From a virus, in the IMG/VR virus record IMGVR_UViG_3300020171_000011, positions 1-41,029 of that record: a DNA stretch of 41,029 nt; one strand, given 5' to 3'. Shown piece by piece: positions 3,676-41,029 of the stretch. Both the position numbers and the translations under genes were made by a program. The stretch's first letter is position 1, and each line of letters begins with the position of its first letter. The notes under the pieces were generated by a model that ran no database searches, was not told the origin of the DNA, and saw only the letters and a list, made by a program, of their open reading frames with translations.

Positions 3676-3882
3676 TTATCGAGAGGCGGGGTTGGCCGCT
3701 TCTTCAACTTGCTGAAGAGTTCTGTCTTGGAACACCTCTATAATCAGAATAGGTGTTCCGTGATACTTCACAGAAAACAACTCGCCTTCGCGATCCACAG
3801 CAGGAATTTTTACTAAATTCCATCCAGTCGTTCCTGATAATTCGTCTATTTTTTCTTTCATTTCTCTTGTTAAGCTTACCAT
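3676..3882 (-). CDS. Hypothetical small protein (68 aa), first gene of the small-gene operon
   Basis: MVSLTREMKEKIDELSG..., a compact alpha/beta-looking sequence with GTPILIIEVFQDRTLQQVEEA. A strong AAGGAGATGG site precedes the ATG at 3882. It is the first gene downstream of the TATA box at 3978-3987 and the palindrome at 3930-3945. Function unknown; the lead position suggests early expression. Confidence 0.65.
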   Translation of the reverse strand: MVSLTREMKEKIDELSGTTGWNLVKIPAVDREGELFSVKYHGTPILIIEVFQDRTLQQVEEAANPASR

Positions 3883-3929: not shown

Positions 3930-3945
3930 ATCAGCATATGCTGAT
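3930..3945. promoter_or_regulatory. 16-bp perfect palindrome, candidate operator
   Basis: ATCAGCATATGCTGAT reads the same on both strands. It lies about 35-50 bases downstream (in transcription direction) of the TATA box at 3978-3987 and 50 bases before the first start codon, so it falls at or just after the expected transcription start, where an archaeal repressor would block polymerase. The winged-helix protein at 4602-4835 is the nearest candidate regulator, but no link is shown. Confidence 0.55.
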
Positions 3946-3987: not shown

Positions 3988-4019
3988 TTTTCGTTTGCAG
4001 AATGTATATATTAAAGCAT

Positions 4020-6188: not shown

Positions 6189-7268
6189 TTAAAGCTCTTT
6201 GCATATTTTTTCTATTGCGCGCGCAGAGTCCTCCCATGTATAGCTTCCTGCATCGTTTGACGCTTGAATGCCGCGTTTCCTGGTTTCGTCTCTGTTGTCG
6301 AAGGCATATCTCATACGCTCCTGCAGCTCTTTTTGGTCCGAGTCCCACCATCTGCATTCTTCATAAATCGGGTTTGAATCTCCTGGCACGATTGACTTCC
6401 CCTTCTGCAGCAGCCAGCCGTTCTCTCCGTCCTTGATGAAGTCTGCCTGGCCGCCGAATGCCGGCGCAATCACGGGCATTCCGCATGCCATCGCTTCGAG
6501 GCATGGAAGGTTGAATCCCTCTGCCCTGGATGTCGAGACGAAGACGTTTCCGGACTTGTAGACCTTAGCGAGCTCTGTTGAGGGTATGATCTGCGCGTTT
6601 AAGAATAATTTGTCCTTCAGTCCCTCGATATTCAGCGCGCGAATTGCTGCAGGGAAGTCTATCTGTGCGTATGACGGGTTAATCTTGACGATTGCCTTTA
6701 CTTTGGCGTCGTTCTTGAATTCCTCGGCAAATGCCTTCAAAAATAGAACGAGGTTGCTGCGGTCCTTATCTCCCTGCGACCAGCCTTTGCACCATACGAA
6801 TGCGAACTCGTCAATTTCTGCGCGCCCTTCGGTATTGAATACCTTCGGATCATATCCGTGCGGCACTATGCTAATTGGTGTCTGTACGCCTGCGGTCATG
6901 CATGCTCCGAGCGTATGCGTGGACGGCACGATTACATGGTTGATGAACTTCTCGTTTAAAGCGAGTCTCCACGATGTGGGTATTTTGGTGCCTTCAAAGA
7001 CGGCATAACATATTATAAGTGTTCTATCACCACTTTTTAAATACGCCATCGGCGGCGGCGTGATCATGAGCTGTATTCCTTCGAATCGGTGGTCTTTCAG
7101 TATCATTTCCCTCAGTTCGTTTGATACTGCGCGCTGCCAGTTCGGGTTTGTCATCTGAGTCTCGAATGCGGTGTCTATGCCGATTCGTTTCAGCGCAAGT
7201 CCTAATTCGCGCGTATGGTTCGCGTATCCACTTTCACCCTCTACCGTTCCACAAATATTTATTTTCAT
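6189..7268 (-). CDS. Glycosyltransferase family 4-like (GT-B), 359 aa
   Basis: N-terminus MKINICGTVEGESGYANHTRELGLALKR carries the Gly-rich donor/acceptor loop of GT4 enzymes; the C-terminal domain contains SRAEGFNLPCLEAMA (about 247-261), the retaining E-x7-E motif that contacts the nucleotide sugar, followed by GMPVIAP. These enzymes transfer a sugar from an NDP-sugar to a growing glycan in the cytoplasm. A GTGAT site lies before the ATG. It is separated from the upstream glycosyltransferase by 82 bases with TATA-like sequence, so it may also have its own promoter. Sugar and acceptor unknown. Confidence 0.85.
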   Translation of the reverse strand: MKINICGTVEGESGYANHTRELGLALKRIGIDTAFETQMTNPNWQRAVSNELREMILKDHRFEGIQLMITPPPMAYLKSGDRTLIICYAVFEGTKIPTSWRLALNEKFINHVIVPSTHTLGACMTAGVQTPISIVPHGYDPKVFNTEGRAEIDEFAFVWCKGWSQGDKDRSNLVLFLKAFAEEFKNDAKVKAIVKINPSYAQIDFPAAIRALNIEGLKDKLFLNAQIIPSTELAKVYKSGNVFVSTSRAEGFNLPCLEAMACGMPVIAPAFGGQADFIKDGENGWLLQKGKSIVPGDSNPIYEECRWWDSDQKELQERMRYAFDNRDETRKRGIQASNDAGSYTWEDSARAIEKICKEL

Positions 7269-7350
7269 ATAATCACATAAAAAATATAACTACTACGCTG
7301 ACCACAACAATTATGCATCCATATATAATATAATCACACAGTGTGTCTAT
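7269..7350 (-). promoter_or_regulatory. Intergenic gap with possible internal promoter
   Basis: AT-rich gap holding TTATATTATATATGG (minus strand) about 65 bases before the next ATG and a short CACACAGTGTG palindrome. It is the only sizeable gap within the glycosylation operon. Confidence 0.35.
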
Positions 7351-8175
7351 TCATAATTTCGTCACCCTGTACGGATTCCCTTTGTCCTTAAACATCCATT
7401 TCGACCATGTTTTGAAGTGCTGCTCGACGATGTTTATCTGCTGCGCATAATCCGGAGACCTCACCCCCCCACTGGGACAGTGTAAATGATAACAGATAGC
7501 TCCGGTATCAGTCAGCATCTTCCATCCTTTCCAGGCCAGCTTCATGCAGAATATTGTTTCCTCGCGCCATCCTGCAGGGCCCGTATCTGTCGGGAATCCT
7601 CCGACCTCGTCGAATGCTTTGCGTCTGAATGCGTATGAGCTTCTTAAATGGTGCGAAGGCAGGACTACAGGCGGATAATATGCGAATCCTCCATCGTCCT
7701 TGATTGTCACGTCTCCATCCTTGCTGAATGTGACTTTATTGAATATGCTCTTTAGTATGTTCGGATTGCGCACGAATGCTGGCATGCCGAATAAAGGCAC
7801 TACGCCTCCTGCGGCTCCAACATTCTCGTCTTCCATCAGCTTCATAAGGCGCGCGATATAATCCTGCTCGAGGAGGCTATCATCGTCGATTCTGATACAT
7901 ATTTCGTTCCCGAATCCTTCCCTTACAGCCCTGTTGCGCGCCGCACAGACTCCCCTCGGTGGTAGGTCTGCGATGTATTTCACGCCATGACCTTCTATTT
8001 TAAGGCGGTTGACGATGTCCCCGATAAACTTATATGCGTTGACCAGCGGTTGCGGCTGCGATGAGTCCACTATCACGACATCGAAGTTCTGTTCTGTCTG
8101 TCTCCACAGCGATGTCAGAAGCATTGCGAGCTCAGTCGCGCGGTCCCGAGTGCATATTTGAATTTCTGCTCTCAT
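7351..8175 (-). CDS. Glycosyltransferase family 2-like (GT-A), 274 aa
   Basis: MRAEIQICTRDRATELAMLLTSL is the start of the GT-A nucleotide-sugar fold; VVIVDSSQP follows, and CIRIDDDSLLEQDY (about residue 93-106) holds the DxD-type metal/nucleotide site. FRRKAFDEVGGFP and GWREETIFCMKLAWKGW are the acceptor-side motifs of polysaccharide-type GT2 enzymes. Probably acts on a lipid- or protein-linked glycan at the inner membrane face. Follows the methyltransferase gene with a gap of four bases. Confidence 0.85.
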   Translation of the reverse strand: MRAEIQICTRDRATELAMLLTSLWRQTEQNFDVVIVDSSQPQPLVNAYKFIGDIVNRLKIEGHGVKYIADLPPRGVCAARNRAVREGFGNEICIRIDDDSLLEQDYIARLMKLMEDENVGAAGGVVPLFGMPAFVRNPNILKSIFNKVTFSKDGDVTIKDDGGFAYYPPVVLPSHHLRSSYAFRRKAFDEVGGFPTDTGPAGWREETIFCMKLAWKGWKMLTDTGAICYHLHCPSGGVRSPDYAQQINIVEQHFKTWSKWMFKDKGNPYRVTKL

Positions 8176-8179
8176 AATC

Positions 8180-8701
8180 TCATCTCGTCATACATAAAAA
8201 TAATTGCTCTTTGAATATCCAATCGTCTGGCACGCGGTTAATTGTGAAATACTCAGCGATTTTGTTCTCCCACCATATCCGAGATTTGCACGTCACATGT
8301 GTTTCATCAGGATATTTACCCCACAGCGAGGAGTCGCAGATGCTGAATATGATGTATTTGCCGGCTTTCTTCTGTATCGCGCGCAGCACATCGTCAATCT
8401 CTGCCTCCGTGACATGCTCCAAAACATCACATACCCAAATCAAATCATAAGTCCCCGATGGAATTTCTTTAAATATGTTATTTCTAGAACAAGCAATTTT
8501 TTGAATTTGTTCGATGTTGGGTTCATATCCAATTGTGGGCACCCCATAATCTGTGAATATTTTTACATATTTACCTGCGCCGGCTCCAAAATCCAATATT
8601 GACTTAGGTATCGTTTTCTCTAAAACCTGCACCGCAAGAATCTCATCTTTTTGAGTCACTATGTCTCTGTCTTTGAAATATGTGGAATCATAATTTGACA
8701 T
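8180..8701 (-). CDS. Class I SAM-dependent methyltransferase (about 173 aa)
   Basis: SILDFGAGAGKYVKIF is motif I (SAM binding), IGYEPN the acidic end of strand 2, and YDLIWVCDVLEHV the post-I motif typical of the Methyltransf_11/23 groups. The ATG at 8701 follows GGTGAAAAAC. Placed between glycosyltransferases, it probably O-methylates a sugar, as in O-antigen and phage glycan clusters; the substrate is inferred only from context. Confidence 0.8.
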   Translation of the reverse strand: MSNYDSTYFKDRDIVTQKDEILAVQVLEKTIPKSILDFGAGAGKYVKIFTDYGVPTIGYEPNIEQIQKIACSRNNIFKEIPSGTYDLIWVCDVLEHVTEAEIDDVLRAIQKKAGKYIIFSICDSSLWGKYPDETHVTCKSRIWWENKIAEYFTINRVPDDWIFKEQLFLCMTR

Positions 8702-8721
8702 GTTTTTCACCTATATGTAAG

Positions 8722-8781
8722 TTATATTGCTCTCTGCCTTAATTTTTCCTTTGTTTTCTCAGTTTGCTTTCGTCCCATCAT
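8722..8781 (-). CDS. NUMOD3-like micro-ORF (19 aa), possible endonuclease remnant
   Basis: MMGRKQTEKTKEKLRQRAI resembles a single NUMOD3 motif, the DNA-binding tail module of GIY-YIG and HNH homing endonucleases. It overlaps the end of the upstream methyltransferase gene. Could be a remnant of a lost intron or homing gene or chance. Confidence 0.25.
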   Translation of the reverse strand: MMGRKQTEKTKEKLRQRAI

Positions 8782-9341
8782 ATTCCCTCATCCCTCACTT
8801 TCACGAACATAAAAGTCCACATCCTCTGCTCGTCTCCTCCGTTTATTGCTTCCTTGTCTTCCTGAAAGAATGTCGGGACAAATCCGCACTTTCGGAATAA
8901 AGCCTCGTAGTTCTCGCGCGGCACACAGAAGTTGTGCTCATCCGCATTAACCCATTGCTTGCAGTCTGCAGGCACGTTCATGAATACAACGCCTTTCATT
9001 CTCAGCACCCGGTTGAATTCGTGCAGTGCTAAAATCGGAGCGATTGCATGCTCAAAGACCTGCGACATAAATATGATGTCGAATGTCGCGTCCGGGAAGT
9101 CCAGTTCGTGCATATCCATCTCTTTTATCCCTTGCGCGCCTATGTCGATGCCTTCCACGCGGTATCCTTTCTCCTTGAATTCCTTCATGTGCTTGTCGTT
9201 TCCGGCCCCGATGTCCAGCAGTCTCGGATGCGTCTCTGCTGGCGGCGCTTTGTCGATGTGCAGACTGAGGCAGCGCGGACATTGTCCTCCTCCTGCTCTT
9301 TGCCATTTTGCGGCGTATTTCTTGAATTTTTCAGTATTCAT
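8778..9341 (-). CDS. Class I SAM-dependent methyltransferase (187 aa)
   Basis: Starts MNTEKFKKYAAKW at an ATG overlapping the stop of the glycosyltransferase upstream (ATGA). A CPRC pair lies at about 23-26 before the SAM-binding motif RLLDIGAGNDKHM; GIDIG, MDMHELDFPDATFDIIFMSQVFEHA and LRMKGVVFMNVP complete the Methyltransf_11 pattern. Likely a sugar O-methyltransferase of the same glycan pathway as the second methyltransferase. An in-frame upstream extension to 9431 lies inside the previous gene and is rejected. Confidence 0.8.
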   Translation of the reverse strand: MNTEKFKKYAAKWQRAGGGQCPRCLSLHIDKAPPAETHPRLLDIGAGNDKHMKEFKEKGYRVEGIDIGAQGIKEMDMHELDFPDATFDIIFMSQVFEHAIAPILALHEFNRVLRMKGVVFMNVPADCKQWVNADEHNFCVPRENYEALFRKCGFVPTFFQEDKEAINGGDEQRMWTFMFVKVRDEGI

Positions 9342-10036
9342 AATTCGAACCTCTGTCTGATCAATCTTGGCAGTTCCTCTGGAGCTACCGGACTCACCGG
9401 ATACTGGCCTAATAAGTGAGCATCGTGCCACATCTTAATGAACTCGGTGTCATGTATTGGCGAGCGTCCTTTGTTCATTATATATTTGTCCTGGATTGCA
9501 TTGACACCCTTCAGGTATCCGAGGTGCCAGATTATGATGTCTCTGATGATGCCTTCTTTGTGCCATTCCGGGCTTTCTGCGTATTCGTGAAGCGGACGGT
9601 TGTATTTGACGCCTTTGTTCTTGAAAAATCTGTTTATTCCGATATGCTCGTGTATGGTTGCATCCTCCAGAGAAAAGGTCCGGATAAAATGGCGGTACTT
9701 CATGCTGTAGACATCCACGTCCGATTGCATGAATACATTAAAAAGATGCGGCGTGTCTCCGATTATTTCGTCCATATCCAACTGAATACACCAAACGGTA
9801 TCTAATTCATCAACAGCTTTCTGACGTGCTGATCCATAGTCATTATCCCATTTTCGAAATATGTATTTTATCTTTTTTGAAGCATAAGGATGAGTGAATA
9901 TTCTATTGAGAGTTTCTTGATTTGCATCACCAACAATTACAATTTTATCCACCCAATCAATAATTGATGCTATGGATAAATCTGCAAAAGGCTCATCTCG
10001 AGCGCATATCATTGCCACACCCATTGTTAAGGCCAT
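9338..10036 (-). CDS. Glycosyltransferase family 2-like (GT-A), 232 aa
   Basis: VAMICARDEPFADLSIASIIDWVDKIVIVGD is a GT2 N-terminus; IQLDMDEIIGD holds the DxD element near residue 88-92. The C-terminal part includes HEHIGINRFFKNKGV and RPLHEYAESPEW. Similar short GT2 proteins in viruses act on beta-linked sugars. GGAGAT lies nine bases before the ATG at 10036. Sugar unknown. Confidence 0.8.
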   Translation of the reverse strand: MALTMGVAMICARDEPFADLSIASIIDWVDKIVIVGDANQETLNRIFTHPYASKKIKYIFRKWDNDYGSARQKAVDELDTVWCIQLDMDEIIGDTPHLFNVFMQSDVDVYSMKYRHFIRTFSLEDATIHEHIGINRFFKNKGVKYNRPLHEYAESPEWHKEGIIRDIIIWHLGYLKGVNAIQDKYIMNKGRSPIHDTEFIKMWHDAHLLGQYPVSPVAPEELPRLIRQRFEL

Positions 10037-10239
10037 ATCTTAATCTCCTTCTCCATGTCTTTCTGCATCTCAGCGACCTTTGCGTTGAAGTCGCGCATTG
10101 TTAGGTCTTCCATTCTTCTGAATATCAGGTAATGCTGGCCTATTGCCTGCTGGAATTCGCGCGTTATTTCTGCGCCCAGCTTGCGGTATTTTTCCTTTAT
10201 TTCGGCTTCCTTCCAGTTTTCTTTTACTTGCTGTTTCAT
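10027..10239 (-). CDS. Hypothetical helical protein (70 aa)
   Basis: Highly charged, helix-forming sequence (KENWKEAEIKEKYRKLGAEITREFQQAIG...) ending KIWP. AAGGAGACTGAG precedes the ATG. Its end overlaps the start of the glycosyltransferase downstream, so it belongs to the glycosylation operon. Possibly a small partner of an enzyme in the pathway; no family recognised. Confidence 0.55.
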   Translation of the reverse strand: MKQQVKENWKEAEIKEKYRKLGAEITREFQQAIGQHYLIFRRMEDLTMRDFNAKVAEMQKDMEKEIKIWP

Positions 10240-10287
10240 GTTGCTCAGTCTCCTTTGCTCGTTTCTCGATAATTTTATAGTGCCATT

Positions 10288-10683
10288 TCAATCCCAATTA
10301 CATGCTGAAAAATTAAGATACTCATCGACTTCGCTCACGATTTCTTCCTCGCGCGTGAGATTCATTCCATGTATGATATTGTGCATAACTTCATGATTGC
10401 ACACTGTTTTGATGCGCGCCATGGATAAATTCTGCATAATATATATGTTGTTCCGGTTGTCCGTCCATCCGTCGCATTGGTCGGTTCCATTCGCTATTAT
10501 ACTTACAGTTCCGTTTATTTTGCTAAATTCGCAGGTGTCTATCATAGTCACTGTGTATTTATCCATCTTGAATGTGTGCGGTGCGATGAATACTCGCTGT
10601 TCGTTCAGCGTATAATGCGCGAATGCGAGTGAGGTGATTGCTGCGCAGGTCATTAAAATAAATGCTATCTCCCTTGCTTCCAT
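10288..10683 (-). CDS. Membrane-anchored HExxH zinc metallopeptidase-like protein (131 aa)
   Basis: From the ATG at 10683 the protein starts MEAREIAFILMTCAAITSLAFAHYTL, a single N-terminal membrane segment, and continues outside the membrane. HEVMHNIIH at about 87-95 is an HExxH zinc site with a third His, and EEEIVSEVDEYL downstream may supply a glutamate ligand. Three NxS/T sequons and several cysteines fit an extracytoplasmic location. The gene follows the GT4 gene directly. It may trim a cell-envelope or virion protein, or act in egress in place of an endolysin; this is inference. Confidence 0.6.
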   Translation of the reverse strand: MEAREIAFILMTCAAITSLAFAHYTLNEQRVFIAPHTFKMDKYTVTMIDTCEFSKINGTVSIIANGTDQCDGWTDNRNNIYIMQNLSMARIKTVCNHEVMHNIIHGMNLTREEEIVSEVDEYLNFSACNWD

Positions 10684-10684
10684 A

Positions 10685-11929
10685 TTACTCAACCATTTTT
10701 TTGAATAACGCAACCCATTTGTTGATGATGCCTTTGTCTCCATCCCATGTGTAATTATCAAGCACCCTTTGCCGGCCGGCAGCGCCCATCTGTTTGCGCG
10801 TATCTGCCTGGTTGTAGAGCATCTTCATCGCGTCCACGAATTCTTCGAGATTCACGAATCCGCGATAAACATCCCACGTCCCGGGTATCTCTGCAGCAAT
10901 TGGCACTCCTATTCCGCACTTTCCTATTTGAAGCTCTTGCTGTGCGCTTGGCGCTGCATAAGGATAGTCCAGCAGTTCCGCAGTTGTGGTGTAATCCGTC
11001 ATAATAATCGGAATCTCCGCAGCCATAGCTTCGATTGTTGTTATGCCGAACCCCTCGCCCGTTGACGTGCTGATTTTAACGTCCATGGCGTTGTATATGC
11101 TGTTCATCTTTGATGTCGGCGCGCCCTGGTAGAATTTCATTGCTCCCTTTCCGAGTATGCGGTGTTCTACGTTGTACCTGCGCGCGAGGTTCATTAAGTC
11201 CGAGTGTCCGGCCTGATCCTGGAAGTCTGTCCATAAAAGCAGATATGCATTCGCATCCGGGTTTCGCTTCATAAATTCTCCGAATGCCATCACTTCCAGC
11301 CCGACCATCTTGCGGCCCTGATTGCGCGTAACATCGCCGAATACGAATGCGTCCTCCGGGATTCCGAAATCTGCTTTGCATTTGCGCTTCTCCTCTGTGC
11401 TCATCGGATAGAATAAGTTCGGATTTGTCGCGTGAGGGATATATTCAGACATTACGTTGTATCCGTCTGTGAGCTGGTTCTGCGCGAATTTCGACATTGC
11501 CACAGGGACATCGAATTTCTTCAGCACGTTCTCGCATCCGGTCGGGAAGTAGTTGCCGTCGCTTGGGTAGTACATTATTGACTTTGCAGGCGCGAAGCTC
11601 ATCGGAATGATCCACGGATAAAGCATGAATGAGTCAAGCAGCACCCAGAATATGTCCGGCTGGTATTTGGCGAAGTATTCCGGGAGAACGTCTTCTGCAT
11701 ATGGCTTGCGTCCGCCGGATAGGATCGTGAAGTTGAGGTCCTCTGTCGCGCCGAGGTCTCCGGTTTTAATCGGAGGGACTAAATTCACGCCGTTGCTGTT
11801 CCACGCGACGTGGTATACTTCGAATTCCGGCATCTGCGATAGACGCTTGCATAATTCGCGCGTAATGTTTGCAAAGCCCGTTGGCGTGAGCACCGAGTCA
11901 CTTAATAGCATTATTTTTATCTTCCTCAT
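10685..11929 (-). CDS. Glycosyltransferase family 4-like (GT-B), 414 aa
   Basis: N-terminal MRKIKIMLLSDSVLTPTGFANITREL and C-terminal TGEGFGITTIEAMAAEIPII (about 290-308) are the two signature regions of GT4 retaining glycosyltransferases, including the E-x7-E pair. FGDVTRNQGRKMVGLEVM carries the R/K phosphate contact region. It starts by an ATGA overlap with the AbrB-like regulator gene, so both are translated from one message. Cytoplasmic sugar transfer; acceptor unknown. Confidence 0.85.
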   Translation of the reverse strand: MRKIKIMLLSDSVLTPTGFANITRELCKRLSQMPEFEVYHVAWNSNGVNLVPPIKTGDLGATEDLNFTILSGGRKPYAEDVLPEYFAKYQPDIFWVLLDSFMLYPWIIPMSFAPAKSIMYYPSDGNYFPTGCENVLKKFDVPVAMSKFAQNQLTDGYNVMSEYIPHATNPNLFYPMSTEEKRKCKADFGIPEDAFVFGDVTRNQGRKMVGLEVMAFGEFMKRNPDANAYLLLWTDFQDQAGHSDLMNLARRYNVEHRILGKGAMKFYQGAPTSKMNSIYNAMDVKISTSTGEGFGITTIEAMAAEIPIIMTDYTTTAELLDYPYAAPSAQQELQIGKCGIGVPIAAEIPGTWDVYRGFVNLEEFVDAMKMLYNQADTRKQMGAAGRQRVLDNYTWDGDKGIINKWVALFKKMVE

Positions 11930-19637: not shown

Positions 19638-20828
19638 CTACCTTCCTGCCGCGCGCATCTCAGAGCGTATCATACTAGTGATTTCGCGCTTCATATAATC
19701 AATGTCGCTTCTATCCCTGAATTGATTGCCACGGATATTAAGCGTGAGATTGATTGATTTTGAGGTTCCGCCAGCCATATTCTGAGGGTTCTTTGTTGCG
19801 AAGATATAATCTGCCGGATCGGTTTTGATATGTTGGCCTGTCGGTGTAATCACAAAATCTCCGCCACCTTCCTTTGTTGTGGTCTTTCCGCCGCCGAATA
19901 CATTTCCGAGCTGTGTCTTAATCCATGCCCACAGCTTTGATGCAAGGTCGAGTCCCCACGTCCATGTATCTTTTATGTTTGTCCAAATCCATGTTCCGAA
20001 AGAACCCACTACTTTTAAACCATCAACGAACTTATCCCAAATCCATGTTCCGAAAGAACCCACTACTTTTAAACCATCAACGAACTTATCCCAAATCCAT
20101 GTTCCGAAATTAGCAACGTCTTTGAGGCCAGCGACTATCAGATTCCAGATCCAAGAACCTACTTTATCGAGGAATTTAAAAGCTGGTGATATGATGTTAT
20201 CCCATATCCATTTACCAACACCTAATAACGCATTAAATGCCGGAACAATTGTATTATCCCATAGCCATTTTCCTATACCTTTGAGCGCATCAAAAACAGA
20301 AATTATTCCTTTCCAAAGCACACCCCCCGCCCATTTTAGAATATCTGCCGCTACACCCGCCAAAAGAGTTCCGATATCCTTTAATCCACCAAATATATCA
20401 CCCGACATTATTTTTTCAATACCCTTCATTAGCCCCATCATTACGGGTTGCAAAATTTTCATAAATAATCCGAAGGCCACCATGATTGGTTTGAGAATTG
20501 GTATTAATGGCATAAATAACAGCATGAGCACAGACTTAAACATCTTCATCACAGCGGATATGATCGGAATGTCTGCCAAAAGGTTCATTAACCCCATCAC
20601 CCCTCCAGCGATAAGTCCGAGCGCGACTCCGGTTGCTGTTGTTCCTCCACCTCCTTCTTTCCCCCCTCCTGCAGCGACTGGCGAGAATTTATCAAGACCT
20701 AATGCGCGCACAGTGTTCTTAAGGCTGCTTTCTATGCGCTTTGCGAATGATTGCGCTGCCTGCTCGGAATCCTTTCTGAGCTTGTCTCCTTTGACATTAA
20801 AATCGATTCCGATTGTTGTTTCAAGCAT
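19638..20828 (-). CDS. Tail tape measure protein (396 aa)
   Basis: Follows the chaperone pair by a TAAATG junction, the standard place for the tape measure. N-terminal charged helix, then Gly-rich GGGKEGGGGTTATG and a long hydrophobic block (about 75-145) with several membrane-like helices for genome ejection; then a run of W-I/L-W repeats (GKWLWDN, GKWIWDN, GSWIWN, GTWIWDK) and a conserved-looking C-terminal NLTLNIRGNQF..REI domain. At 396 residues it is short, predicting a short tail (roughly 60 nm at 1.5 angstrom per residue). Two repeats are exact copies, see the tandem duplication. Confidence 0.85.
   Translation of the reverse strand: MLETTIGIDFNVKGDKLRKDSEQAAQSFAKRIESSLKNTVRALGLDKFSPVAAGGGKEGGGGTTATGVALGLIAGGVMGLMNLLADIPIISAVMKMFKSVLMLLFMPLIPILKPIMVAFGLFMKILQPVMMGLMKGIEKIMSGDIFGGLKDIGTLLAGVAADILKWAGGVLWKGIISVFDALKGIGKWLWDNTIVPAFNALLGVGKWIWDNIISPAFKFLDKVGSWIWNLIVAGLKDVANFGTWIWDKFVDGLKVVGSFGTWIWDKFVDGLKVVGSFGTWIWTNIKDTWTWGLDLASKLWAWIKTQLGNVFGGGKTTTKEGGGDFVITPTGQHIKTDPADYIFATKNPQNMAGGTSKSINLTLNIRGNQFRDRSDIDYMKREITSMIRSEMRAAGR
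19985..20108. repeat. 54-bp exact tandem duplication inside the tape measure gene
   Basis: 19985-20038 and 20039-20092 are identical and a third copy starts at 20093 but diverges after 16 bases. The unit encodes the 18-residue WIWDKFVDGLKVVGSFGT. In-frame and fresh, so it changes tape length by 18 residues per copy. Confidence 0.95.
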
Positions 20829-25765: not shown

Positions 25766-26314
25766 TTAGCAAATTCGTACCAATACTGCTGCTCCTGATG
25801 CTGCGTCGTTCACAGCTATTGCCGCGACTCTTGGCAGAGGGCTTCCAGTAATCGGTAGTACTGTGTTCAGCGCGCCTCCAGCGCCCATCTGCAGGTGTTG
25901 TCCGTATGTGATGGTATTATCAGCCACCATATATGCCAATCCATTTATTAGGATTACGGGTGCTGCTCCTGATGCAACAGTTGCCATGCATACGCCAATT
26001 GGCGCAGGGCATGATGCAGGCGCTGCGATTACCACGGTTTGGGATCCTGCAACCCATTGTCCGCCAGATATAATTACATCTGCGAGTGGTCCTTGAACTG
26101 TCAGCCCTTGTCTATAAGGCGAGCCAGCAGTTACTTTTACTGATGCGCCTATGCGCGCATCAGCAGTTACCATTGCAGAACCCGTCAATGTTAGGTTTGC
26201 GCCGCCCAATATAGTTGTTGCAGTTACCGAGCCAGTTGATACTACATTGCCAAAGCTTCCGGTTGTTGCCACATATTGTTCATGCGGCAATCCTTGTAGT
26301 ATGTTAGTAGCCAT
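25766..26314 (-). CDS. Capsid-associated/decoration-like protein (182 aa)
   Basis: MATNILQGLPHEQYVATTGSFG... then a run of short beta strands rich in Gly, Ala, Thr and Val (GSVTATTILGGANLTLTGSAMVTADA), a middle with QGLTVQGPLADVIISGG, ending VAAIAVNDAASGAAVLVRI. The final part (INGLAYMVADNTITYGQHLQMGAGG) is the DUF2190-like pattern of small capsid decorators. GGAGGAGATT precedes the ATG. Lies directly behind the major capsid gene. Confidence 0.6.
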   Translation of the reverse strand: MATNILQGLPHEQYVATTGSFGNVVSTGSVTATTILGGANLTLTGSAMVTADARIGASVKVTAGSPYRQGLTVQGPLADVIISGGQWVAGSQTVVIAAPASCPAPIGVCMATVASGAAPVILINGLAYMVADNTITYGQHLQMGAGGALNTVLPITGSPLPRVAAIAVNDAASGAAVLVRIC

Positions 26315-38294: not shown

Positions 38295-38671
38295 TGTTTG
38301 ACCTCGATTCCTGCGCGTTCCATATCGCGTTTAGTCAATAGCTTCTGCGCGAATGCATCCTTTGCGCGGTCAATATCCACCCTCATTGTCGTTCCGTGGT
38401 TCTTCTCGCATCTGAAGTCCAGCATCCACCCGATGATTTTTGATGTCTTCTGATCTCTGATCTCTGATGATTGCACGAGCTTCATCCCAATATCGAAATA
38501 ATGCTTTATATCATGATCCTGCCCTTTGTCCGCATCCAGCTTCATGCACCTTAAGCATGCCGGTTTCAGCGTTTCCGCCTGCTGCTTGACAACATCGTGG
38601 TGCTTGTTGCCGTAGGCTTTGAAGCGCGCGTTGGTCTCATTCGTCCGTCTCTGAGTTTCGTCGTTTTCCAT
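38291..38671 (-). CDS. Hypothetical protein with CxxC (126 aa)
   Basis: MENDETQRRTNETNARFKAY..., then LKPACLRCMKLDADKG and a later Cys-Glu-Lys-Asn-His, a possible zinc site made of CLRC and C-x4-H. GAGGTATTGAT precedes the ATG. Its first 106 bases overlap the end of the preceding ORF in another frame, which is long for this genome. Not recognised. Confidence 0.6.
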   Translation of the reverse strand: MENDETQRRTNETNARFKAYGNKHHDVVKQQAETLKPACLRCMKLDADKGQDHDIKHYFDIGMKLVQSSEIRDQKTSKIIGWMLDFRCEKNHGTTMRVDIDRAKDAFAQKLLTKRDMERAGIEVKQ

Positions 38672-38859
38672 TTTATCAATACCTCTTTGGGATTGTTTTC
38701 GAGAATATGAAAATATGCTTTAATCTTGTTGTATGCCTCTTCCACGGTGATGCCTCTTACTGTGATTGTCCGGGACTTGACTTTGCTCTTTTGTTTTAGA
38801 ATGTGCACTGTTATTCCGCGCTGGTCTGTCTTGCCGTATCTCTCCTTGATTACTTGCAT
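38566..38859 (-). CDS. Hypothetical basic protein (97 aa), first gene of the packaging-side unit
   Basis: Residues 1-65 (MQVIKERYGKTDQRGITVHILKQKSK...TVEEAYNKIKAYFHILENNP) look like a small folded domain of two strands and a helix; the last 30 residues, Arg/Thr/Ser-rich, lie over the start of the next gene and may be a read-on in an unselected frame, so a stop has perhaps been lost. A TATA box about 26 bases ahead and no Shine-Dalgarno suggest a leaderless transcript. Confidence 0.55.
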   Translation of the reverse strand: MQVIKERYGKTDQRGITVHILKQKSKVKSRTITVRGITVEEAYNKIKAYFHILENNPKEVLIKWKTTKLRDGRMRPTRASKPTATSTTMLSSSRRKR

Positions 38860-38880: not shown

Positions 38881-38892
38881 GTATATATAGTT
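38881..38892 (-). promoter_or_regulatory. TATA box (class B) before the resolvase/methyltransferase/packaging genes
   Basis: TTAAACTATATATACTG on the minus strand, with ATG at 38859 about 25 bases after the box. Shares TATATATAGTTT (plus-strand spelling) with the glycosylation-operon promoter at 12113. Confidence 0.6.
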
Positions 38893-38911: not shown

Positions 38912-39091
38912 TTATATCGCCCTGACCTCCGCGAATTCTGCCGAGCTCTTAATTGAGCGTATAGCTCCGAGCGCGTTCTCTCTCCTGGAGTAGCCTTCGC
39001 TGTGCGCAAGTATCTGTCCGTTTCCGCAGATTATGCGGAAGCGCCATTTTTGTTTGCCTTTTCCTTTGAATACTTCGAATCTGTTTGTCAT
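38912..39091 (-). CDS. YegP-like (DUF1508) protein (59 aa)
   Basis: RFEVFKGKGKQKWRFRIICGNGQILAHSEGYSRRENALGAIRSIKSSA carries the YegP/DUF1508 pattern: F-x-x-F/Y-K...W-R-F-R, NG-x-I/L...SEGY and a final helix I-x-S-I-K. GAGGTCGAAATAT precedes the ATG at 39091; the in-frame extension upstream runs through the zinc-ribbon gene and is rejected. A small one-domain protein of unknown role in viruses and cells. Last gene of the small-gene operon. Confidence 0.8.
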   Translation of the reverse strand: MTNRFEVFKGKGKQKWRFRIICGNGQILAHSEGYSRRENALGAIRSIKSSAEFAEVRAI

Positions 39092-39102
39092 ATATTTCGA
39101 CC

Positions 39103-39240
39103 TCATGATAACATCCAAGTTCCGTTTATTTCTTTGATGTCTCTGATGTTTGTAAATCCGCACACTTCGCATTTACGTTTCAGTTTGCGGCCCTCCGCGA
39201 ATTTGCGGTATTTTGCGCTTCCGCATGCAGGGCATTTCAT
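39103..39240 (-). CDS. Zinc-ribbon microprotein (45 aa)
   Basis: MKCPACGSAKYRKF and KCEVCGFTNI: CPxCG and CxVCG knuckles about 20 residues apart, the classical zinc ribbon. The leader GAGGCGATGAA lies right before the ATG and overlaps the end of the 44-residue gene upstream. Likely nucleic-acid or protein binding; partner unknown. Confidence 0.7.
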   Translation of the reverse strand: MKCPACGSAKYRKFAEGRKLKRKCEVCGFTNIRDIKEINGTWMLS

Positions 39241-39381
39241 TTCATCGCCTCTTTATCCGCGCCTGTCAAACGCTCGTAAATCTCTTTGACTTCTGAGTCA
39301 GTCAATGCTTCAAGCAAAATGTTAATCTGCCTAATCATTGTTTTTTTTGTCTGCTTTTTGTTTTCAGTCATTTCAATCGCC
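39235..39381. repeat. 147-bp direct repeat, copy 1
   Basis: Identical to 40362-40508. Covers the whole 44-residue gene and its leader. The flanks differ, so the unit has been copied as a self-contained cassette. Confidence 0.95.
39237..39371 (-). CDS. Small helical protein (44 aa), exact duplicate copy 1
   Basis: MTENKKQTKKTMIRQINILLEALTDSEVKEIYERL... ending ADKEAMK. Looks like two short helices and a basic start. The DNA is identical to 40364-40498, including the leader upstream. The last four codons (GAG GCG ATG AAA) are the Shine-Dalgarno leader of the next gene, whose ATG overlaps the stop. Confidence 0.7.
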   Translation of the reverse strand: MTENKKQTKKTMIRQINILLEALTDSEVKEIYERLTGADKEAMK

Positions 39382-39396
39382 ACTTTTATTGCATGT

Positions 39397-39627
39397 TTAT
39401 ACCTCAAAAATCATATTGCGCTCGTTAGCTCTGCTTTCTAAATATCGCCAGCCGAATATCTTTTTCGGCTTGTTGCGCATCAACGCGGAATCAATTGCCG
39501 TCATTTTCTTGAACGACTTTGAGCCGCATTGACAGTTTTCATTCTGCCAATAATGAATATTCGTGCATCCGACGCATTTCTTGAACAGCCACCAATTATC
39601 TACTATATCTAAAAATGATACTCTCAT
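39397..39627 (-). CDS. Zinc-finger-like protein (76 aa)
   Basis: MRVSFLDIVDNWWLFKKCVGCTNIHYWQNENCQCGSKSF: CVGC and CQCG about 15 residues apart form a probable zinc ribbon; a basic C-terminus (RNKPKKIFGWRYLESRANERN) may bind nucleic acid. An AGTGATT site precedes the ATG. Confidence 0.65.
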   Translation of the reverse strand: MRVSFLDIVDNWWLFKKCVGCTNIHYWQNENCQCGSKSFKKMTAIDSALMRNKPKKIFGWRYLESRANERNMIFEV

Positions 39628-39680
39628 AGAATCACTCTTTCAATTCATATTCCATCCGCAAATTCAGTCATTTCTTTGCC

Positions 39681-39800
39681 TCATTCGACATAGCGTATTT
39701 TATCTAAAGCGCATTTTCCTTCTCTCTCAAAATAACAGAGCTCTGAGCAGTCATTTCCATCTTTGCATTTTGTTTTTGTTTTAAAAAGCTCCGGCTTCAT
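39681..39800 (-). CDS. Cysteine-rich microprotein (39 aa)
   Basis: MKPELFKTKTKCKDGNDCSELCYFEREGKCALD: four cysteines with spacing C-x5-C-x3-C-x7-C. Starts with the MKPE sequence shared with 40509-40712 and the leader GAGGCGATGAA. Could be zinc-binding or disulphide-linked. Confidence 0.6.
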   Translation of the reverse strand: MKPELFKTKTKCKDGNDCSELCYFEREGKCALDKIRYVE

Positions 39801-39809
39801 TTCATCGCC

Positions 39810-39929
39810 TCAATAAAACAAAATCCATTTACAGACAGCAACAATCAGCGCAAGTATAAGCGCAAACAATGCTTTAAGCAATGCTCCGCCGCCAGTTATT
39901 TGTGTTTCTTCCGTTCTTTCTTCGGTCAT
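39810..39929 (-). CDS. Single-pass membrane microprotein (39 aa)
   Basis: A polar start MTEERTEETQITGGG and a hydrophobic helix ALLKALFALILALIVAVCKWILF. Start codon overlaps the stop of the paralogue A gene (TAATG). Leader CGGCGATTGTA. Possibly a membrane-directed early peptide; not recognised. Confidence 0.55.
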   Translation of the reverse strand: MTEERTEETQITGGGALLKALFALILALIVAVCKWILFY

Positions 39930-40285
39930 TACAATCGCCGCTTTTTTGCTTCTGGGAAGATTTCGTCTACTGTTTCAATAACGCAGCAGATATGCGCTTG
40001 CATCTCATCGCTTGCTGTTGAATAACTTTTAAGCAAGTCTTCTTTTAGCTTCCCGATGCGCTCTTTTAAATCATTATGCGCGGATTGGCGGCCTGCCTCA
40101 AATTCGTCTGAAGTATCTACATTCCAGATGTCGCCGCAATTCCTGCAAATAAACTCTCTTCTGCCTTCCGCTCTTGCTTTATCAAGCGCTTCAATCAATT
40201 CTGATTTATAAAACGTAATTAAACTTTTTGCCGATTCTTGACCGCATTTTTTTGCATTCATTTCCGCAATAATTTCTTCATTTCC
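39929..40285 (-). CDS. Small coiled-coil-like protein, paralogue A (118 aa)
   Basis: MGNEEIIAEMNAKKCGQESAKSLITFYKSELIEALDKARAEGRREFICRNCG... with a CRNCG pair, then a long helix (GRQSAHNDLKERIGKLKEDLLKSYSTASDEMQ...) that is the same as in paralogue B. The start is set at 40285 by alignment with paralogue B; the frame is open to 40318. The DNA from 39932 to 40090 is an exact copy of the corresponding part of paralogue B. Function unknown. Confidence 0.7.
   Translation of the reverse strand, partial: GNEEIIAEMNAKKCGQESAKSLITFYKSELIEALDKARAEGRREFICRNCGDIWNVDTSDEFEAGRQSAHNDLKERIGKLKEDLLKSYSTASDEMQAHICCVIETVDEIFPEAKKRRL
39932..40090. repeat. 159-bp direct repeat, copy in paralogue A
   Basis: Identical to 40903-41029 continued by 96-127. 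Encodes the shared C-terminal two thirds of the two paralogues. The 95-base overlap of the contig ends lies wholly inside this repeat. Confidence 0.95.
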
Positions 40286-40367
40286 CATGTTCACCACTTC
40301 CATACCCTGCATAGCCATCGTGAATACATATTTGATTTGACGATTCTGTCCAGCGTTTCGTTTTCAT
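40278..40367 (-). CDS. Micro-ORF (29 aa) with the repeated leader
   Basis: MKTKRWTESSNQICIHDGYAG... begins directly after the GAGGCGATGAA leader provided by the second copy of the 44-residue gene (ATGA overlap) and ends inside the start of paralogue A. Support comes only from the leader and the overlap. Confidence 0.4.
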   Translation of the reverse strand: MKTKRWTESSNQICIHDGYAGYGSGEHGK

Positions 40368-40508
40368 TTCATCGCCTCTTTATCCGCGCCTGTCAAACGC
40401 TCGTAAATCTCTTTGACTTCTGAGTCAGTCAATGCTTCAAGCAAAATGTTAATCTGCCTAATCATTGTTTTTTTTGTCTGCTTTTTGTTTTCAGTCATTT
40501 CAATCGCC
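40362..40508. repeat. 147-bp direct repeat, copy 2
   Basis: Identical to 39235-39381, 1,127 bases away. Perfect identity implies recent duplication or ongoing gene conversion. Confidence 0.95.
40364..40498 (-). CDS. Small helical protein (44 aa), exact duplicate copy 2
   Basis: Same DNA and protein as 39237-39371. Here its EAMK-stop end serves a different downstream gene, which shows that the cassette can be placed in front of different partners. Confidence 0.7.
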   Translation of the reverse strand: MTENKKQTKKTMIRQINILLEALTDSEVKEIYERLTGADKEAMK

Positions 40509-40712
40509 TCATACTCCTGCTCCGCCGTCTTCTTTTCCTGCTTTGTATGCCTTCAGGTAAAGGTTTCGGGCGGCTTGATCTATATTATTGTACCACGATA
40601 ACGACCCCCAGTCTGGCAATCCTGTTGTTTTTAATATATTTTTTTTAAATTCCGCAATCAGGGCTTCGTCTTTCTGCTTTATCATTGAGTCTTTTGTCGG
40701 CTCGGGTTTCAT
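40509..40712 (-). CDS. Hypothetical protein, MKPEP-leader family (67 aa)
   Basis: MKPEPTKDSMIKQKDEALIAEFKKN...LYLKAYKAGKEDGGAGV. The N-terminal half resembles that of the 668-985 protein (KDExxLIAEF), and IDQAARNLYLKAYKAGKEDG recalls the IEAAAKNLIHN stretch there. Helical; unknown function. GAGGAAATAGTT precedes the ATG. Confidence 0.6.
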   Translation of the reverse strand: MKPEPTKDSMIKQKDEALIAEFKKNILKTTGLPDWGSLSWYNNIDQAARNLYLKAYKAGKEDGGAGV

Positions 40713-40714
40713 AA

Positions 40715-40900
40715 CTATTTCCTCTTTCTCAGTATTTCTTTGATTTTGTCAAGCGCCTTTCGTAAGGCTCTATTACTTCTTTTTCTGAATTCGATTATTG
40801 TTAAAATCTCTGCTCGTGGATTGCTTTTGAGCAGAACAACTGGCGAGGCTTGCGGGAGGTTCTGTTCTTTTCTTTTTTCGTCTTTTGATTTTTCAGTCAT
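40715..40900 (-). CDS. Hypothetical basic protein (61 aa)
   Basis: MTEKSKDEKRKEQNLPQASPVVLLKSNPRAEILTIIEF... and a C-terminal Lys/Arg-rich helix (ALRKALDKIKEILRKRK). The start ATG overlaps the stop of paralogue B (ATGA). Shares the VVLLK string with the 668-985 protein. Could bind nucleic acid; not recognised. Confidence 0.6.
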   Translation of the reverse strand: MTEKSKDEKRKEQNLPQASPVVLLKSNPRAEILTIIEFRKRSNRALRKALDKIKEILRKRK

Positions 40901-41029
40901 TTCAATCGCCGCTTTTTTGCTTCTGGGAAGATTTCGTCTACTGTTTCAATAACGCAGCAGATATGCGCTTGCATCTCATCGCTTGCTGTTGAATAACTTT
41001 TAAGCAAGTCTTCTTTTAGCTTCCCGATG
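40897..41029 (-). CDS. Paralogue B, C-terminal part (continues from base 1)
   Basis: The reverse frame from 41029 is the shared helix region and ends EIFPEAKKRRLK at a TGA at 40897. It is the end of the gene that starts at 313 if the contig is circular. The last 95 bases repeat bases 1-95. Confidence 0.7.
   Translation of the reverse strand, partial: IGKLKEDLLKSYSTASDEMQAHICCVIETVDEIFPEAKKRRLK
40935..41029. repeat. 95-bp terminal direct repeat (identical to 1-95)
   Basis: Bases 40935-41029 equal bases 1-95 exactly. This is the pattern left when an assembler closes a circular or circularly permuted molecule. The third copy at 39964-40058 inside paralogue A means it can also come from a repeat-caused break. 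Confidence 0.9.

Follow-up and report, generated by a model that had tools for sequence, protein, structure and literature searches.

Repeated gene junctions in the small-gene operon of a tailed virus suggest a route for the duplication and swapping of small genes

The complete IMG/VR virus record IMGVR_UViG_3300020171_000011 (41,029 bp; this whole stretch is called the window below) contains a block of small genes in which one DNA joint closes a gene, opens the next, and could supply homology for exchange, and joints with other sequences recur in the same role so that the pattern is found in three related viruses. The block is flanked by the glycosyltransferase genes and the packaging operon and runs on the minus strand from position 3882 across the contig ends to 38912; its joint is built around a near-constant leader, GAGGCGAT(T)GAAATG. 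The window junction is private to this virus and comprises a Shine-Dalgarno (SD) core (GAGG-C-GAT), a short spacer, and an ATG; it often extends into the opening codons of the following gene and sometimes takes in the last codons of the previous one. These repeated joints suggest that the viruses could duplicate and swap small genes quickly. The best overall explanation, which we regard as probable on balance, is that these small genes, mostly orphans, form a hypervariable polycistronic operon. The question that this addresses is how viruses acquire their many small orphan genes and how an operon can take in such genes and stay intact. The tailed-virus gene set of the window includes a terminase large subunit, a portal with a fused Mu-F head domain, a capsid protein of the HK97 type, a protease, and tail genes, and every gene in the window that could be assigned lies on the minus strand, as do the block genes, leaders, and repeat units given by coordinates below.

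Copies of the leader that were exact or had one mismatch were found ahead of the starts at 434, 2775, 39240, 39371, 39800, 40498, 40367, and 40900, and copies with two mismatches were found ahead of those at 39929 and 39671. An earlier note on this DNA had placed the leader before at least six of these genes, with correct coordinates, and starts 40367 and 39671 are additional to its list; of the close variants that it named, those at 40900 (at most one mismatch) and 39929 (two) held up, and that at 646 has four mismatches. When up to three mismatches were allowed, the leader 15-mer occurred 10 times, versus 2.2 times expected by chance (0 of 100 shuffles reached this count). With up to two mismatches, this short sequence stood directly upstream of the starts of 10/25 block genes, unrelated genes among them, and of 1/45 other genes (Fisher test, P value = 7 × 10−5); after removal of three duplicated copies, the counts were 7/22 and 1/45 (P value = 1.2 × 10−3). 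The sole leader outside the block precedes 27670 (GAGGAGATTTAAATG), with near cases at 26314 and 20828, and the capsid and tail genes carry SD leaders that are similar, not identical, to that of the block. An equally frequent leader before the structural genes had been named beforehand as the outcome that would speak against movable units, and the frequencies differed as given above.

The leader combines an SD core with conserved positions beyond those that pair with rRNA (a GAGG core plus GAAATG(A)), and its copies form exact repeats of 16 to 21 bp. Stop/start overlaps or very short gaps with an SD upstream are present at the block junctions: we counted 25 small genes and open reading frames (ORFs), in agreement with the two dozen or so described earlier as packed with overlaps, and overlaps proper were found in 9 of the 24 neighboring pairs, the remaining gaps being 0 to 25 bp (14 pairs) and, once, 78 bp. 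The gene at 431 to 646 finishes in two tandem copies of LEWKEKKKHLEAIK, with the leader inside each 45-bp copy, and terminates in KKHLEAIK; the leader GAGGCGATTAAATG (432 to 445) is at once these EAIK codons with the stop and the ribosome binding site of the zinc-ribbon gene at 306 to 434. Likewise, the leader GAGGCGATGAAATG (40365 to 40378) is both the EAMK end of the gene at 40364 to 40498 and the ribosome binding site of a 29-amino-acid ORF that starts at 40367. Three genes had been said to end in this way, and the ends are correct (GADKEAMK in both 39237 to 39371 and 40364 to 40498), but they amount to two independent cases because the latter two are the same 147-bp duplicate. Two more genes finish in RRL(K) inside a leader, namely, MGNEE paralogue B, whose last codons, RRLK and the stop, are the leader CGGCGATTGAAATG (40898 to 40912) of the MTEKSKD gene at 40715 to 40900, and MGNEE paralogue A (39929 to 40288, 119 amino acids), whose RRL end falls within a leader. 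Since the main leader forms have stop codons in two of three frames, most upstream reading frames end inside them. The TGA stop of an upstream gene also overlaps the exact leader GAGGCGATTGAAATG (2773 to 2787) before the zinc ribbon at 2647 to 2775; another exact leader (39798 to 39811) lies ahead of the MKPEL gene at 39681 to 39800, and the variant GAGGCAAAGAAATG (39669 to 39682) lies ahead of an 8-codon ORF, MTEFADGI, possibly a gene remnant.

Duplicated segments in the block start and/or end at the leader. The clearest is a 147-bp cassette (leader, MTENKK gene, and next leader) present in two exact copies, copy 1 at 40362 to 40508 and copy 2 at 39235 to 39381, which has leaders at both ends: it starts within the leader, 10 bp upstream of its own ATG, and stops 3 bp beyond the next ATG. 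The copies then run into different genes, the zinc-ribbon gene MKCPACG (39103 to 39240) behind the leader at 39240 and the unrelated MKTKRW at 40367, and a breakpoint at the junction is needed because the identical 3′ ends lead into unrelated genes. A 159-bp copy, reported along with the 147-bp one as exact, matches exactly only when the two ends of the contig are joined. Two further resemblances pointed out earlier were borne out, the paralogy of the 42-amino-acid zinc ribbons at 306 to 434 and 2647 to 2775 (z = 19.8) and a common MKAEP start. The latter is a 27-bp module, AAGAGGTnTCCnAATGAAAGCCGAGCC, at starts 985 and 2175, whose copies (972 to 998 and, as AAGAGGTATCCTAATGAAAGCCGAGCC, 2162 to 2188) are 93% identical and lead into gene bodies without detectable relation. 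Among eleven window proteins compared, body similarity was found by this test only in the zinc-ribbon pair.

We also evaluated where the repeats end, using the block's exact repeats of 14 bp or longer (14 pairs, 28 copies, with the gene encoding N-I-D-A repeats masked) and 2,000 random placements. A start codon was included in 19/28 copies (4.1 expected), and 19/28 ended within 8 bp of a start codon (2.0 expected; maximum of 8 in the random placements); as the repeat pairs are not independent, these figures are a description rather than a clean P value. For the internal duplications of the window, breakpoints thus described coincide with short homology at gene borders, and no near relatives with the block were available for a between-genome comparison.

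Relatives were collected from a capsid alignment, which gave 48 related loci, and 44 records (the window and 43 others) were searched for the leader. Even with one mismatch allowed, GAGGCGATGAAATG was found in 0/43 other records, and the leader as a 17-mer gave only three matches in 2.9 million IMG/VR contigs, all in unrelated phages, so a search of other viruses, which the earlier note had proposed for archaeal virus genomes, did not recover it as a widespread mobile signature. As far as these sequences go, the leader is not a fixed, recognized, conserved plug-in site, and that part of the earlier proposal is not supported. What remains of the movable units is the duplications bounded by the leader, the unrelated genes that share the leader and first codons, and the same architecture in two relatives.

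These relatives, G007 (capsid identity to the window, 66%) and G016 (61%), have the same architecture with different junctions at a syntenic position that matches that of the window block, spanning the contig ends upstream of the packaging genes. In G007, the junction is KKLEGEA and stop/AAGGTGAAGCTTAATGG: AAGGTGAAGCTT(A/G)ATGG or close forms precede at least five genes, and the upstream genes finish in KKLEGEA or similar with a TAATG overlap. In G016, it is LKQKIQGVGE/AATTCAAGGGGTGGGGGAATG, and four consecutive genes have a common C-terminal tail (65229 to 65471, LKQKIQGVENA; 65464 to 65685, LKQRIQGVGE; 65682 to 115, FKQKIQGVGK; and 112 to 321, LKQEIQSEVGEK), the DNA of which (AATTCAAGGGGTGGGG...) doubles as the SD of the following gene. 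The bodies of these genes are random with respect to each other (|z| < 1), full-length comparisons of the first three being raised by the tail alone, and the junction DNA is mostly 81 to 97% identical over 29 to 60 bp. A second G016 junction, FNLTE[EA]DLK/AACAGAGG[AC]GGATTTAAAATG, occurs twice. The G007 and G016 junctions were each present at least three times in their own contig and in no other contig among the 2.9 million viral ones scanned. Furthermore, clustering of repeat 3′ ends was above random in both (14 versus 3.4 in G007 and 13 versus 1.4 in G016), and similarity of start contexts was 9 to 47 times commoner within than between genomes (window, 7.4 × 10−4 versus 1.6 × 10−5; G007, 8.6 × 10−4 versus 3.6 × 10−5; G016, 5.6 × 10−4 versus 6.5 × 10−5). 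A weak version was seen in the distant relative G041, where 5/14 repeat copies contain a start (0.8 expected). In another distant relative, G037 (L086), two genes (7498 and 7762) are preceded by an exact start-spanning repeat of 27 bp, AGGAATATCTTATGACGGAACAAACAC.

We think the odds somewhat favor a junction that is an ordinary translation-coupling signal and that, once copied, provides homology for duplicating, deleting, and swapping gene bodies. The junction, with its SD and stop/start overlap, would couple the translation of neighbors by termination-reinitiation, a step with good precedent. Copied junctions would then give 14 to 40 bp of homology, at which homologous or template-switching recombination could duplicate, delete, or swap bodies; duplication is read from the sequence, and exchange is what reuse of the junction would allow. 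Swapping at reused junctions would leave the operon unbroken, and recombination would keep the junctions of one genome uniform, with drift and turnover making them private between genomes. Because no recombinase was found in the proteins scanned, the process would fall to host recombination or to replication slippage. A bolder proposal, which we hold as tentative and rate below even, is that such arrays are self-made: each lineage would arrive at its own junction (C-terminal tail, SD, and start), which would spread in the operon by recombination and become a site, private to that lineage, for exchanging small orphan genes. An inserted body would be automatically terminated, coupled, and translated, so new genes could arise or be taken up with neither a recombinase nor a conserved site. 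Junction arrays offer a testable explanation of how small viral genes could turn over rapidly.

Several observations weigh against recombination at copied junctions. The comparable blocks of G005 and G039 have no exact repeats of at least 14 bp and no common junctions, so the array is not obligatory; moreover, start similarity within G005 is also raised, through scattered SDs of its structural genes, which means that part of this measure is plain SD uniformity. One duplication gives several repeat pairs, and simple duplication clearly plays a part, as in the zinc ribbons, the MGNEE pair, the MTENKK copies, and the modular G007 paralogues. No recombinase, integrase, or reverse transcriptase was recognized among the window proteins scanned, which were not all of them. 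Finally, no near-identical pair of viruses with differing cassette content was found, and exchange is thus unobserved; a search for further relatives covering the block by way of gene 38566 recovered only G005.

If the leader were simply a strong SD site made uniform by selection for translation, with no recombination, one would expect the closeness of GAGGCGAT to the anti-SD complement GGAGGTGAT, from which it differs at one base, as well as the similar capsid-gene leaders such as GAGGAGATTTAAATG and the uniform AAGGTGAT leader of the structural genes in G040. However, the repeats run past the SD into the first codons (GGCGATTGAAATGACTGAAAA), those of G007 and G016 reach back into the C-terminal codons of the upstream gene, and whole cassettes are duplicated leader to leader; identities of 16 to 27 bp already argue against this explanation, and the junctions are private to each virus, whereas the anti-SD is expected to be nearly universal. 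We therefore consider it improbable. Plain tandem duplication followed by divergence, in which a gene is copied with its leader, the bodies diverge fast, and the junctions are kept by selection, strikes us as unlikely though less so, given the clear paralogues (the zinc ribbons, MGNEE A and B, the MTENKK copies, and the RKQTLKEVLDLID family of G007) and the 45-bp tandem duplication of tail and leader. It does not account well for the G016 genes, with bodies like random sequence and nearly identical junction DNA, or for the leaders at 39240 and 40367, which form the identical 3′ ends of the two exact 147-bp copies and yet precede unrelated genes.

The same placement upstream of unrelated, nonstructural genes, with bases conserved beyond the SD, would also suit a regulatory site, where a protein or RNA of the virus or its host would attach to the repeated junction and control translation of the block, as has been considered for the repeats of cluster K mycobacteriophages (PMC3203893). 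No motif is common to the three viruses, though, and the junctions hold coding bases on both sides and come with whole duplicated genes; the repeats of mycobacteriophage TM4 stop before the start codon, unlike those of the window, and we give this account no better chance than uniform SD sites. By far the least probable is a dedicated plug-in array, integron-like or driven by a site-specific recombinase, that captures anti-host genes. Its cassette-like units with a repeated joint and small zinc-ribbon proteins are indeed present, and in G043 only ~0.5 kb separates GT1 from the methyltransferase gene, so the block is absent from that place. Still, the joint is a direct repeat private to each virus, no such enzyme was recognized among the proteins scanned, and no convincing match to defense-related models was found. 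PADLOC gave marginal matches only, and Pfam matches in the block were limited to zinc ribbons and DUF1508; the block proteins are otherwise orphans, and none of the block proteins has a homologue in the relatives. The anti-host role suggested earlier thus gained no support, and an anti-defense role was not retained.

Other features of the block can be placed as follows. Its first gene (3676 to 3882, 68 amino acids) has a TATA-like element upstream (about 3990 to 4010), and between the two lies a perfect palindrome, ATCAGCATATGCTGAT (3930 to 3945), a possible operator. Among named phages, the gene at 2175 to 2663 has relatives (32 to 36%) only in vir519, a Methanofastidiosa virus, and in Microbacterium phages. 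A repeat-rich protein of 205 amino acids (982 to 1599), with ~25 N-I-D-A-x pentapeptide-like units and a DNA repeat period of 15 bp, had no Pfam match. An MKPEP gene (67 amino acids) occupies 40509 to 40712, and the last block gene, at 38912 to 39091, encodes a DUF1508 protein (PF07411, E value = 2 × 10−13). The right border is the first gene of the downstream packaging operon (38566 to 38859), with a TATA-like box at 38890, 31 bases before its ATG. Elsewhere in the window, a cluster of glycosyltransferase and SAM methyltransferase genes (6189 to 11929), kept in several relatives, may modify the host or virion surface, and 54-bp tandem repeats (19983 to 20144) lie within a tape-measure-like gene.

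The contig ends have 95 bp in common, and their circular join is likely; since this overlap sits in a repeat also present at 39964 to 40099, the phasing of the two repeat copies, that is, which left flank meets which right, is uncertain. The repeat context comprises 1 to 136 (the 3′ part of MGNEE paralogue B, which starts at 313 and spans the contig end), 39964 to 40099, and 40876 to 41029. The G007 and G016 contigs likewise start and stop within their arrays. Block repeats that break assemblies probably explain why these three contigs begin and end there.

An archaeal host is likely for the window virus, judging by sequence features: TATA-like boxes 23 to 31 bases ahead of the SD-less starts 38859, 28971, and 34921 resemble those of leaderless archaeal transcripts, and of the three named viruses closest by terminase match, two are archaeal (a Methanofastidiosa virus and haloarchaeal HJTV-4), although identities are only ~30%. 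TerL and MCP alignments searched against GTDB genomes for a host or provirus gave no match. In vir519, whose terminase is 32% identical, no junction repeats of the block kind were found. In that virus (L093), a TATA-plus-palindrome element, CTTTATAAGGTACTGATCAGTAC, stands complete or in part ahead of six genes (2769, 3797, 27037, 28559, 37923, and 38591), a probable repressor regulon.

Among known systems, the start-associated sequences (SAS/ESAS) of cluster K mycobacteriophages (Pope et al. 2011, PMC3203893), for which a regulatory binding role was considered, are alike in being a short repeat with an SD core directly before the starts of several unrelated, mostly nonstructural genes, sometimes with the upstream stop codon inside. 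Unlike SAS, whose consensus GGGATAGGAGCCC is conserved across cluster K, the window junction has a different sequence and is private to its virus; SAS end before the start codon (in TM4, by annotated starts, SAS-containing repeats stop short of the ATG), whereas the window repeat crosses the ATG into coding sequence, the junctions of its relatives include upstream C-terminal codons, and duplicated cassettes accompany them. Integron cassette arrays differ in having an integrase, which was not recognized among the proteins scanned, and a recognized attachment site, the joint here not being conserved between viruses. For overlapping gene pairs that carry internal SDs, experiments in the archaeon Haloferax have established coupling by termination-reinitiation (PMC6728339), and the ATGA/TGATG-type stop/start overlap with an SD inside the upstream gene is shared; as described there, coupling appears as a general property of overlaps, with no common sequence beyond the SD and no cassette repetition. 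Short conserved boundary sequences at gene borders have been proposed as recombination points in phage mosaicism (PMC3029335), and gp68 of Island3, a protein without homologues, is described as having its C-terminal 18 residues and their DNA (~50 bp) in common with the upstream gene 67. The anatomy of gp67/gp68 equals one G016 unit and is the nearest precedent for a common C-terminal tail as a recombination point. Island3 represents a single event, whereas the window junction is reused many times per operon and also serves for ribosome binding, and in relatives the pattern reappears with other sequences. What is new is the junction as the joint of a whole operon, its double role as a ribosome binding site, and its recurrence with unrelated sequences at one locus.

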